NCBI GenBank assembly: GCA_030446505.1
Contig: JAUJND010000010.1
Location: 1 to 64,000, forward strand
DNA length: 64,000 nt
Direction: 5' to 3'
From: Chroococcidiopsidaceae cyanobacterium YX2bin18
GTDB lineage: Bacteria; Cyanobacteriota; Cyanobacteriia; Cyanobacteriales; Chroococcidiopsidaceae
How positions within the stretch are numbered: position 1 is the stretch's first letter; every line of letters begins with the position of its first letter. Under the pieces are notes generated by a model that did not search any database, had not been told where the DNA came from, and saw only the letters and a list, made by a program, of their open reading frames with translations. Made by a program: the position numbers and the translations under genes. Shown here piece by piece: positions 4,183-16,756 of the stretch.

Positions 4183-4461
4183 CTATCTACCTGCCTTTTT
4201 GTCACTTTTAGCGTGACCCCGAAATGTACGTGTAGGAGCAAACTCTCCTAACTTGTGTCCAACCATCTGCTCAGTGAGGTATACAGGGACGTGCTGACGA
4301 CCATTATGAACAGCGATCGTATGCCCTACCATTAGTGGTAAAACTGTTGATGACCGAGACCAGGTTTTGATGACTTGCTTTTCGCCTCTAGTGTTTAGCT
4401 TCTCAATTTTGGTGAGCAAACTATCGGCAATAAAAGGACCTTTTTTAAGAGAACGACCCAT
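4183..4461 (-). CDS. rpsS: 30S ribosomal protein S19
   Basis: [20 protein letters not shown]...[22 protein letters not shown]. Confidence 0.98.
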
Positions 4462-4467
4462 ATTTAA

Positions 4468-4500
4468 ATAGTTTTGAGTTTTGAGTTTTGAGTTTTAAGT
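4468..4500. repeat. GTTTTGA heptanucleotide repeats in the rplB-rpsS spacer
   Basis: GTTTTGAGTTTTGAGTTTTGAGTTTTAAGTT. Confidence 0.85.
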
Positions 4501-4575
4501 TGAATAATTTAGTTTTAAGTTCTGAATCAAAGCAAAAAACAATTGCCTCTTCAATGCAAAACTTACACCTATTAT

Positions 4576-5439
4576 TTAAGACTCGCGACCGCCTCTCCCA
4601 CGTTTGGATGATTTACGGCGGCGACGCACAATTAAGGCATTACTTAATTTTTTCGGCTTACGTGTCTTTGCACCCAAGGTTGGTTTACCCCAAGGCGTCA
4701 CTGGACCAGCTCTACCGATTGGTGCCTTACCCTCACCACCACCATGAGGATGATCAACCGGGTTCATCACACTACCTCTAACCTTTGGACGGCGACCCTT
4801 CCAGCGATTCCGACCAGCTTTACCTGCACTTAGATTTCTGGCATCAATGTTACCGACTTGTCCAATCGTGGCATAACAATTACGAGGTACTAAACGTACT
4901 TCTCCTGAAGGCAGCCTAAGTGTAACGTAATCGCCTTCCTTGGCAACTAACTGAGCACCTGCACCAGCAGCGCGCACAATTTGAGCACCTTTGCCTGGAA
5001 TCAGTTCCACGTTATGAACTGTGGTTCCCAAAGGAATACGCATAAGCGGCAAAGCGTTACCGTCTTCAATCGGCGAGTCAGGTCCAGAAATAATCAGTGT
5101 CCCCACTGCCAAACCGTTTGGATGGAGAATGTACCGTTTTTCACCGTCTTGGTAGTATAAGAGAGCAATTCGAGCATTGCGGTTAGGATCGTACTCGATC
5201 GCTGCCACTTTTGCTGGTATATTATGCTTGTCACGCTTAAAGTCAATTGTCCGGTAAAGACGTTTGTGACCTCCACCCCGACGACGACTGGTAATTACAC
5301 CACGATTATTTCGACCTTTATCGCGATGCACCGAGGCAGTTAGAGATTTCTCTGGCTCACTCTTTGTAATCTCAGCGAAGTCAGAAACTGTAACCTGGCG
5401 AGTACTTGGGGTGTATGGTCGGTAAGAACGGGTACCCAT
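4576..5439 (-). CDS. rplB: 50S ribosomal protein L2
   Basis: [21 protein letters not shown]...[22 protein letters not shown]. Confidence 0.98.
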
Positions 5440-13308: not shown

Positions 13309-14160
13309 TCAAACCTTAGCTGAAGCTTGATTTGAAGGCATCACAACTTTCTTAGCTAAACCAAGAGTTTGCAAACCTTTAATTGCCCACCAAGTCATAT
13401 CAATTTCCCACCAATTCAAGCCAGCTTTTGCTACTTTTGGGTCAGCGTGGTGGTTATTATGCCAACCTTCTCCGTAAGTTAAGATTGCTGCCCACCAGAG
13501 ATTACGAGAGTTGTCATCCAACTTAAAATTACAATAACCCCAGAGGTGAGTTGCAGAGTTAATCAGCCAAGTGCTATGCCAGAGTAATACTGATCTGACA
13601 AAAATGCCATAGATAACAAAAGACCATCCTCCCAAAACGTACAGTAGGATGCCAAGGGGAATTTGAAGCAGTAAAAAGTAGCGATTCAGCCAACAATAGA
13701 ATGGATCGCGGGCTAATTCGGGTGCAAATCTTTTGTAAGTTTCCGGTTCAAAAAACTCTGAACGTGGGTACAAAATCCACTGCATATGGCTCCACCAAAA
13801 ACCCCGCTTGGAGGAATAGGGATCTTTATCTTCGTCCTCAGTATAAGCATGATGCAAACGGTGTCCAGCTACCCAAAAGATTGGTCCGCCTTGAATAGCA
13901 AGTGCTCCCAAGATAGCGATCGCATATTCCAACCACTTTGGAACTTGAAAGCTGCGGTGGCTTAAAAGTCGGTGATACCCCAAGCAAATACCAATGCTAC
14001 CAAATAACCAGTGGAGGAATATTGTAACTCCCAAGGCAGACCAAGAAAAGAACCAAGGAGCTAACAGAGCTAAGGCATGAATTGTCCCGAAAAATGCCAC
14101 GTTAATCCAACTGAGGTTAAGCGGCTGCTTACCTTCAGTGGTTGCTGAATGCATAGTCAT
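13309..14160 (-). CDS. desC: acyl-lipid/acyl-CoA delta-9-type fatty acid desaturase
   Basis: Histidine boxes HRLLSH, HRLHHAYTEDEDKDPYS and HNNHHAD. Confidence 0.88.
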   Translation of the reverse strand: MTMHSATTEGKQPLNLSWINVAFFGTIHALALLAPWFFSWSALGVTIFLHWLFGSIGICLGYHRLLSHRSFQVPKWLEYAIAILGALAIQGGPIFWVAGHRLHHAYTEDEDKDPYSSKRGFWWSHMQWILYPRSEFFEPETYKRFAPELARDPFYCWLNRYFLLLQIPLGILLYVLGGWSFVIYGIFVRSVLLWHSTWLINSATHLWGYCNFKLDDNSRNLWWAAILTYGEGWHNNHHADPKVAKAGLNWWEIDMTWWAIKGLQTLGLAKKVVMPSNQASAKV

Positions 14161-14269
14161 AATTTCCTTTTACGGGCAAACCGTAAATAAACCAGCGCTG
14201 AAAACTGCAGAACTGGTTAGCTCATCCTCTGTGAGAACTAGCAAAGACGGCTAAAGTAGAAGCAGAGGA

Positions 14270-14332
14270 TGCAAGTGCTACTTACATTATTAGCTTAACA
14301 AAAATACTTTTTAAATGCAAGTGACACTTGCA
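14270..14332. promoter_or_regulatory. two operator-like palindromes in the desC/TetR intergenic region
   Basis: 14316-14332 TGCAAGTG-A-CACTTGCA (perfect 8-bp arms); 14270-14286 TGCAAGTG-C-TACTTACA (second arm 6/8), 46 bp apart. Confidence 0.7.
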
Positions 14333-14341
14333 TATTAATTT

Positions 14342-15547
14342 ATGCCTGCTCAACGAAATTCAACTCGACAGCGATTGATCAATGCAGCGCTTGAGTTGTT
14401 TGCTACTCAAGGAGTCGCCGAGACGACGACTCGACAGATTGCAGAATTGGCACAAGTCAATGAAGTAACGCTATTCCGGCATTTTGGGAACAAGCAGGGA
14501 TTGCTATTGGCAGTGATTTCAGAATCCGCAGTATTTAAGGATTTAGGTGAATCTTTAAAAAAGCAAGCAAATCAACCTGGCAGTGTCTACCAAGCTTTAA
14601 AAAACTATGCAAGCGATCGCCTACAGGCTCTAGAACAAGTTCCAGAGTTGGTACTATCTGTAGTAGGTGAGGCAAGGCAGTATCCACTAGAAAATCGTCT
14701 TGCTCTAGGAAGAGGCTTAACTCAAGCCAACCGCTATGTTGCGGAATATTTAGCAACAGTTATAGAACGTGAGCAATTACACACTCTGCCAGCAGAAAAG
14801 CTAGCAAGTTTGCTCAATAGTCTTTTACTGGGGTATGCCGTAATTGAATTTACGAGTGAATTTCATCAGCTTTGGCATGATCGAGATGAGTTTTTAGAGA
14901 GTTTGCTAGATCTGTTTTTAGGTACAGCAGATCCCATCAACTTTCCTGATCAAGAGAGACAAGCAACAACAGATAAGGTTGCTGATTTACCAGCAAATTT
15001 AGTTCATTTGATTCTGCAACGAGCAAAAAAATTGGGATTACGAGATTACGCATTAATGTACGTTTTGTTTGGCGCAGGTTTGTCTCCAGCAGAAATTGTT
15101 AATTTAGAGCGAATGCACCAAATAATTGATACACATCAGCATTTATTACAGATAACCCAAGCTGTACGACAAGTAGCAGTCAATCAGTGGATCATGGGTA
15201 AGCGCTATGGTTCCTATACTCGTAATCCATTAACTCAATGGCTTAAAAGCCGTAAAGACGAGCGATCAGCATTATTTCTTAACGACGCTGGAATACCAAT
15301 TTCAGAGTCAGAACTATACTTACGCTGGGAAGAATTAACTGAGGGATTACTAACTCCTGAAGGGCAACCACCAGCAATTGAGCAAGCTCAACAAACGTGG
15401 TGTGTAGAAATGTTGATGAAAGGAATGAAACTGGAAGATTTGAGCATTCTTACAGGCTGGAGTTTAACTCAATTACAACCTTATGCTTGTAGAGCCAAAG
15501 AAAAATTAGCCTTAGAGCAAGCTCTTCGCCTTGATCGCAAGTCTTAA
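14342..15547 (+). CDS. TetR/AcrR-type regulator with long C-terminal tyrosine-recombinase-like extension
   Basis: N-term TetR HTH (RLINAALELFATQGVAETTTRQIAELAQVNEVTLFRHFGNKQGLL); C-term LRDYALMYVLFGAGLSPAEIVNLERM ... LMKGMKLEDLSILTGWSLTQLQPYACRAKEKL. Confidence 0.85.
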   Translation: MPAQRNSTRQRLINAALELFATQGVAETTTRQIAELAQVNEVTLFRHFGNKQGLLLAVISESAVFKDLGESLKKQANQPGSVYQALKNYASDRLQALEQVPELVLSVVGEARQYPLENRLALGRGLTQANRYVAEYLATVIEREQLHTLPAEKLASLLNSLLLGYAVIEFTSEFHQLWHDRDEFLESLLDLFLGTADPINFPDQERQATTDKVADLPANLVHLILQRAKKLGLRDYALMYVLFGAGLSPAEIVNLERMHQIIDTHQHLLQITQAVRQVAVNQWIMGKRYGSYTRNPLTQWLKSRKDERSALFLNDAGIPISESELYLRWEELTEGLLTPEGQPPAIEQAQQTWCVEMLMKGMKLEDLSILTGWSLTQLQPYACRAKEKLALEQALRLDRKS

Positions 15548-15811: not shown

Positions 15812-16756
15812 TTACAAATTCACTTTAGAATTTGTAAGCTGAATCATTTTTATCTCTAAATTTCCATAGTTACCTTCTGGGTACATCCTAATACACAATG
15901 CATCTTGTTCAGAATAATATTCAATCCATTTGTATACATTGTATTTACAGCTATCGACTGCTTTGAACAAATTATTTTTGATTCGAGTAGATTTAAAGGG
16001 AAAAAACTTTAGAGGACTTCCTAGAGGAATGTATCGTATATTTTTATTTTCGTTAAGACTAGCTATTAAATTCGTACCTATAATTGCGCCAAAGCTATGA
16101 GCTACAACTGTTACATTAATATAATTTTTCTCTTGCACTAAACTTAAAGTTTCTAAAACTCTCTCATTAATCTTATCTTTTGTAAATTCGTCTTCAAAAT
16201 AACGTTCAGCAAAATTAACTAAATTGGCAGTTTCACTTACAGGTAATAAGCCTACCAAAAAAGTATTAACTAACCATATCAAGCCTGTTGTTGATTTAAA
16301 TCTTTTTAAAAAATCTAATTCTACTTCTTTAACTACCTCTGCAAATATAAGAAGAATAGTAATAAAGTACCAGCAGACAACAATAAATAGTAACGCAGTA
16401 GAGCCAAGCACTAAAAGCATTGATTTCTGAAAAGCTTTAAAGATACCAGAGTGAAGCCAGTACAACAAAAGGTAGAAGCCACGAGGTACTCTTTGTGTAA
16501 GTTCCATCTTAGTTAAATCTTCTATAAGATCTCCCCAATAGGCTTCATATACATCAATCAAACGATTACTGATTTGAAACCGTTTGACACTACAGCTATT
16601 TTTATCAAGTTTTCTTACTTCTTTGGCTCCAGCCTTCTGGAATTCCTTTCCAATACGATGGAGAATCAAGTTTCTTTCTTTTGTGGTAAAACCAGGTATC
16701 AGAAATATAGCTTCTAAATTTTCTGATCTGTCAAGTTTATTAACATTCAGTTCCAT
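15812..16756 (-). CDS. hypothetical membrane-associated alpha/beta-hydrolase-like protein
   Basis: VTVVAHSFGAIIGTNL nucleophile-elbow-like motif; two hydrophobic segments upstream of it. Confidence 0.55.
   Translation of the reverse strand: MELNVNKLDRSENLEAIFLIPGFTTKERNLILHRIGKEFQKAGAKEVRKLDKNSCSVKRFQISNRLIDVYEAYWGDLIEDLTKMELTQRVPRGFYLLLYWLHSGIFKAFQKSMLLVLGSTALLFIVVCWYFITILLIFAEVVKEVELDFLKRFKSTTGLIWLVNTFLVGLLPVSETANLVNFAERYFEDEFTKDKINERVLETLSLVQEKNYINVTVVAHSFGAIIGTNLIASLNENKNIRYIPLGSPLKFFPFKSTRIKNNLFKAVDSCKYNVYKWIEYYSEQDALCIRMYPEGNYGNLEIKMIQLTNSKVNL

Follow-up and report, generated by a model that had tools for sequence, protein, structure and literature searches.

DesT of Pseudomonas is a TetR-type regulator of fatty-acid desaturases, and to our knowledge both it and MadR of mycobacteria are ordinary two-domain TetR proteins. 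MadR represses desaturase genes and is released by acyl-CoA (PMC8872791). MrpR (YopR), the master repressor of the SPbeta prophage, is a DNA-binding repressor with a recombinase-dead tyrosine-recombinase fold (PMC10516654). The locus described here lies in the window, a 64,000-nucleotide stretch of contig JAUJND010000010.1 from Chroococcidiopsidaceae cyanobacterium YX2bin18, and combines elements of both systems: a 401-aa regulator (14342-15547, plus strand) joins a TetR head to a degenerate tyrosine-recombinase catalytic domain. From its computed fold, loss of catalytic residues, purifying selection, synteny and paired operators, we infer that this fusion protein is fairly probably a dedicated, self-regulating repressor of a divergent delta-9 desaturase gene, with the recombinase fold serving as a module for DNA contact or dimer bridging.

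MrpR is the nearest precedent for the C-terminal domain, and phi3T SroF has a related fold. Like that domain, MrpR has lost its catalytic residues (Arg I is replaced by Val or Ser) and kept the Tyr. However, MrpR is a lysogeny-controlling phage protein that has its own core-binding domain but lacks TetR, whereas the fusion regulator has a TetR head, is found in cellular genomes beside a lipid gene and lacks a core-binding domain. With MadR it shares the TetR helix-turn-helix and a tie to desaturase control, suggested here by synteny and operators. In the open-access literature, we found no description of a MadR- or DesT-type regulator with a recombinase domain, of a TetR-recombinase fusion, or of its operator pair. 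In that literature, each half has a precedent (MadR and MrpR), while none was found for the combination, its cellular fixation and the operator pair. The protein would be a cellular, rather than phage, capture of the tyrosine-recombinase fold for gene regulation, joined to a bacterial repressor of a family that is very common.

The open reading frame (ORF) at 14342-15547, with an ATG at 14342 and orthologues in relatives, is confirmed as a genuine fusion of TetR and recombinase-like parts. An artefact (frameshift, misassembly or adjacent integrase remnant) is ruled out by a single intact ORF in more than 100 loci, and the fusion is one unbroken ORF of ~400 aa in named isolate genomes as well. 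The exact reverse-complement frame of 14342-15547 is full of stops, and the interval contains no minus-strand ORF of at least 80 aa. An earlier note, made from the letters alone, had read a TetR helix-turn-helix plus ligand domain in the first ~200 aa and a phage-integrase/Xer-like domain in the remainder; the helix-turn-helix and the recombinase-like domain are borne out. Pfam places TetR_N (PF00440) at residues 12-58 (E 2.7e-15; 56.3 bits, cut-off 24), within a helix-turn-helix region of about residues 1-58 (14342-14515), and Phage_integrase (PF00589) at residues 219-374 (30.9 bits in the whole protein, above the curated cut-off of 27.1; 33.2 bits for the C-terminal half on its own). PF00589 also matched 48 of the 51 family members at E<=1 (best, 8.5e-13), and NCBIfam weakly agrees, with TetR models over the N-terminal part and XerC/XerD models over 226-334. 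The putative TetR ligand-binding/dimerisation domain, approximately residues 59-195 (14516-14926), matched no specific Pfam family; it is all-helical in a monomer model of moderate confidence and sits at a position typical of TetR proteins. A flexible linker (residues 196-212; 14927-14977) leads into the degenerate catalytic domain (residues 213-401; 14978-15544). In the full-length AlphaFold model, the linker is of low confidence (predicted local distance difference test, pLDDT, <50 at 196-211), and the placement of the domains relative to each other is uncertain (predicted template modelling score, pTM, 0.48). Pfam detected no core-binding (SAM-like) N-terminal domain of tyrosine recombinases; TetR fills the N-terminal half.

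Structure prediction, the check that the earlier note had proposed, confirms a tyrosine-recombinase catalytic-domain fold for the modelled C-terminal domain. AlphaFold2 modelled residues 200-401 with pLDDT 88.2 and pTM 0.83, and Foldseek gave 47 matches at E<=0.001, every one a tyrosine recombinase or integrase, including XerA (E 6.7e-8), XerH, Tn1549 Int, Cre, lambda Int and a staphylococcal integrase. VIA-align gave Z 20.1 for XerA (root-mean-square deviation, rmsd, 6.7; 179 aligned), Z 17.2 for XerH (rmsd 3.7; 188 aligned) and Z ~14-15 for Cre and lambda Int; the phage repressor folds YopR and SroF scored Z ~12 and 12.7. Searched against PDB, a profile of 51 homologues matched Pyrococcus XerA (4a8e; E 1.9e-6), collinear across 179 positions. 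The profile, fold and selection evidence rules out a chance Pfam match.

The C-terminal domain shares its catalytic-domain fold, the Tyr and the KxRxVP-strand Arg with XerA, XerH, Cre and lambda Int; unlike them, the fusion protein lacks Arg I, the Lys, the His, mostly Arg II and the core-binding domain, and has TetR. As the earlier note had recognized, the first catalytic Arg of the window protein is a Ser (S248, GLSPAE), its HxLR position is not conserved (E347 and Q350, reading EQAQ), and a Tyr (Y381) stands near the C-terminus; W373 occupies the His/Trp site. Among 101 distinct homologues, the Arg I site is Ser in 89, the HxLR His site is Glu in 67 and His in none, the Arg II site is Gln in 80, and the His/Trp site is Cys in 20. 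The Lys position lies in a loop that varies, where no more than 6 of the 101 have Lys and the window protein has none; R276, the counterpart of the KxRxVP-strand Arg, is invariant (101/101). These residues rule out an active recombinase, and the domain looks catalytically dead. A relaxed active site that still cuts or joins DNA, through single-strand nicking or topoisomerase-like activity, would be consistent with the Tyr kept in 97/101, Trp at the His/Trp site in 70/101, Arg II kept in 18/101 and Arg at the Arg I site in 3/101, but we consider it highly improbable: nearly every member, the window protein among them, has lost Arg I, the HxLR His and the Lys, no catalytic set is left invariant, and the Tyr can have a structural role.

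At the HxLR motif, the deepest branches recovered (L201-L203, 41-45% identity) still have ARHTW or PRHTW, with Arg I already gone; this region is QARHTW in deep branches and mostly QAQQTW in later ones. That the deep branches keep the HxLR-site Arg but not Arg I suggests that the catalytic residues decayed stepwise, Arg I first. An Arg still occupies the Arg I site in Kastovskya adunca (L108, 4323-5591) and in L019, with GLRPQE and GLRTNE. The Kastovskya protein additionally retains Arg II, Trp and Tyr, a larger catalytic set than in most other members.

Among 60 relatives, 27 have the fusion, as do 41 of 386 genomes sampled across the phylum (E<=1e-46; ORFs of 399-496 aa). After these 41 genomes, the phylum search returned only weak matches (E 1e-8 to 1e-3), mostly ORFs of ~290-340 aa that we take to be ordinary Xer-type recombinases; within that search, the C-terminal domain was not found outside the fusion context. 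A scan of the GTDB species-level collection, through which phyla other than cyanobacteria were covered, found 293 loci, and the best 80 of these 293 were all cyanobacterial by record title. A viral origin is rejected, in that no relative turned up when IMG/VR was scanned with the profile of the C-terminal domain.

The C-terminal domain is retained under purifying selection. When the window protein was compared with five homologues, the ratio of nonsynonymous to synonymous substitution rates (dN/dS) was 0.10-0.20 across residues 213-385, on a par with the 0.08-0.21 of the helix-turn-helix, and was ~1 for the linker where dS was estimable. At 51 positions, the C-terminal domain is at least 95% conserved. 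A chance fusion with a functionless, decaying integrase remnant could account for the stepwise loss of catalytic residues, but is contradicted by this purifying selection, by the conserved positions and by the 293 loci, which together make it scarcely credible. Conservation peaks in the family-specific motif IMGKRYGSYTRNPL (residues 284-297; 15191-15232), with 86% mean pairwise identity versus 66% for the whole C-terminal domain, though part of the motif is of low confidence in the model (pLDDT <50 at 284-290). This most conserved yet poorly modelled motif, GKRYGSYTRNPL in the window, may be the true functional surface of the C-terminal domain.

The genomic context, absent from the earlier note, links the regulator to membrane lipid desaturation. 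The divergent partner is a 283-aa delta-9 acyl-lipid desaturase gene of the DesC type (13309-14160, minus strand; PF00487, E 1.7e-22), whose product has the histidine boxes HRLLSHRSF, GHRLHH and GEGWHNNHH. These satisfy HR-X3-H, HR-X-HH and HN-X-HH, matching the pattern of DesC-type delta-9 acyl-lipid desaturases (PMC2593844, PMC4390868). The partner, of either the sn-1 or the sn-2 type, shares this pattern with the DesC1/DesC2 desaturases of cyanobacteria. The regulator lies head-to-head with a delta-9 desaturase gene in 26 of 26 relatives, and the divergent desaturase recurs in all 77 further loci with enough flank, in all ten phylum-wide loci including deep branches, and on one plasmid (these sets share a few species). 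Genes beyond the regulator-desaturase pair differ between loci. In four relatives with a close desaturase and no fusion protein (G022, G033, G039 and G046), strict operators were absent and no TetR gene was visible beside the desaturase, the L192 flank being only partly shown.

Of the 78 intergenic regions aligned, 77 contain a pair of 19-bp palindromes, ATGCAAGTGnnACTTGCAT. In the window, these are operator 1 (ATGCAAGTGCTACTTACAT, 14269-14287) and operator 2 (ATGCAAGTGACACTTGCAT, 14315-14333), the latter a perfect palindrome save at its centre. The motif has four strand-matches in the window against 0.34 expected, a number reached by none of 100 shuffles. Operator centres are 46-47 bp apart in 66 of the 77 regions (range 45-53), across intergenic lengths of ~120 to 575 bp. 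The sole locus without operators, in Nostoc sp. PA-18-2419 (L121, ~4417-4608), has a deletion that takes both together with approximately the first 86 codons (the helix-turn-helix) of the regulator; the remainder and the desaturase stay open, and this is either a natural variant lacking operators and helix-turn-helix or an assembly artefact. Across the 60 genomes, the strict operator pattern occurs mainly at the desaturase-regulator locus in genomes with the fusion protein, and the reversed pattern used as a control gave five matches in all. On this strict pattern in the 60 genomes, a wide regulon is ruled out, as stray sites were few and inconsistent, and the neighbours of four of them (L197-L200) included no consistent or obvious lipid-gene target.

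The operators appear to be interlocked with the promoters of both genes. In 74 of 77 loci, the spacer contains a nearly invariant plus-strand element, ANNNTANCAA, at a set distance from operator 2. On the minus strand it reads TTGnTAnnnT, an extended -10 element 17 bp from the TTGCAT of operator 2. The predicted desaturase promoter (14292-14320, minus strand) accordingly comprises a -35 TTGCAT inside operator 2 (14320-14315), 17 bp and the extended -10 TTGTTAAGCT, while the putative regulator promoter (14282-14310, plus strand) comprises TTACAT inside operator 1, 17 bp and TACTTT. Its -10 (TAnnnT) is less conserved (T in 60, A in 37 and T in 54 of 77). Spacer elements and operator hexamers are predicted to form overlapping promoters of both genes. 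Each operator would then overlie one gene's -35 and the other gene's start, and binding would bring joint repression and autoregulation.

In the mechanism that we propose, the TetR head would bind each of the two palindromic operators as a dimer. Operator 2 would overlie the predicted desaturase -35 and operator 1 the desaturase start site, and since the regulator promoter would have the mirror-image layout, occupancy is expected to shut both genes. The TetR middle domain would then probably let go of DNA upon a lipid-related signal, e.g., an acyl chain. Alternatively, the fusion protein could be an activator or dual regulator of the desaturase, since operator 2 lies at the predicted -35 region, a site for some activators, and the large C-terminal domain could, speculatively, contact RNA polymerase. 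We consider this quite unlikely: operator 1 appears to overlie the start site, and most characterised TetR proteins beside a divergent gene repress that gene. The MadR precedent is likewise a repressor (PMC8872791).

Within the proposed repressor, the C-terminal fold most likely touches DNA, either in the spacer or alongside the operators, and/or bridges the two bound dimers, the latter via the surfaces through which recombinases oligomerise in synapsis. This role is favoured by analogy with MrpR/YopR and because recombinases oligomerise on DNA. The reuse of the fold for DNA binding or dimerisation, as first proposed in the earlier note, is plausible. The main rival is a second sensor or protein-docking domain that responds to a metabolite, lipid or partner and tunes the TetR head, with DNA touched only by that head. 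It would fit the near-neutral net charge of the domain, the loss of catalytic Arg residues known to contact DNA, and the concentration of conservation in a family-specific motif that is absent from the XerA alignment. However, MrpR still binds DNA despite loss of the same catalytic residues (PMC10516654), and every close structural match has a DNA-binding fold; on balance, we regard a sensor or docking role as possible but rather unlikely. A more specific version of bridging, which we put forward as tentative and unlikely, is that the recombinase-like domain acts as a synapsis module, joining two operator-bound TetR dimers; the resulting tetramer would read the 27-28 bp spacer as well. The spacer, with its near-invariant element, is about the length of the dif core site, and if this idea is correct, a transcription switch would run on a recombination-type nucleoprotein complex without DNA cutting.

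Several observations weigh against repression with DNA contact or bridging by the C-terminal domain. The net charge of this domain is just slightly positive (+1 in the window protein; mean, +2.3), which gives no clear sign of strong non-specific binding to DNA. Overlapping promoters alone can account for the set operator spacing, and one of the ten phylum-wide loci (L204, a deep branch) has its operators 85 bp apart, so that bridging need not occur at a rigid distance. A simple consensus scan favoured other minus-strand hexamers than the proposed promoter elements, and TetR proteins are also able to activate. The operator pair is precise enough for bench testing, and the fusion protein is a candidate dedicated regulator of delta-9 desaturase genes across a wide range of cyanobacteria, in which temperature and light control of membrane unsaturation is a long-standing question.

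Two further observations concern the surroundings of the pair. In the window, a 314-aa ORF (15812-16756, minus strand) without a Pfam match has a VVAHSFGA stretch and hydrophobic segments, and possibly encodes an alpha/beta hydrolase. The plasmid copy of the regulator, from Gloeothece citriformis PCC 7424, is annotated only as a "TetR/AcrR family transcriptional regulator". There, on the mobilizable plasmid pP742403 (NC_011730.1; L211, 2067-6245), the desaturase and fusion-regulator pair with both operators adjoins genes for an orange carotenoid protein N-terminal domain protein and an ssl1498-family light-harvesting-like protein, a group that looks like a light-stress cassette.
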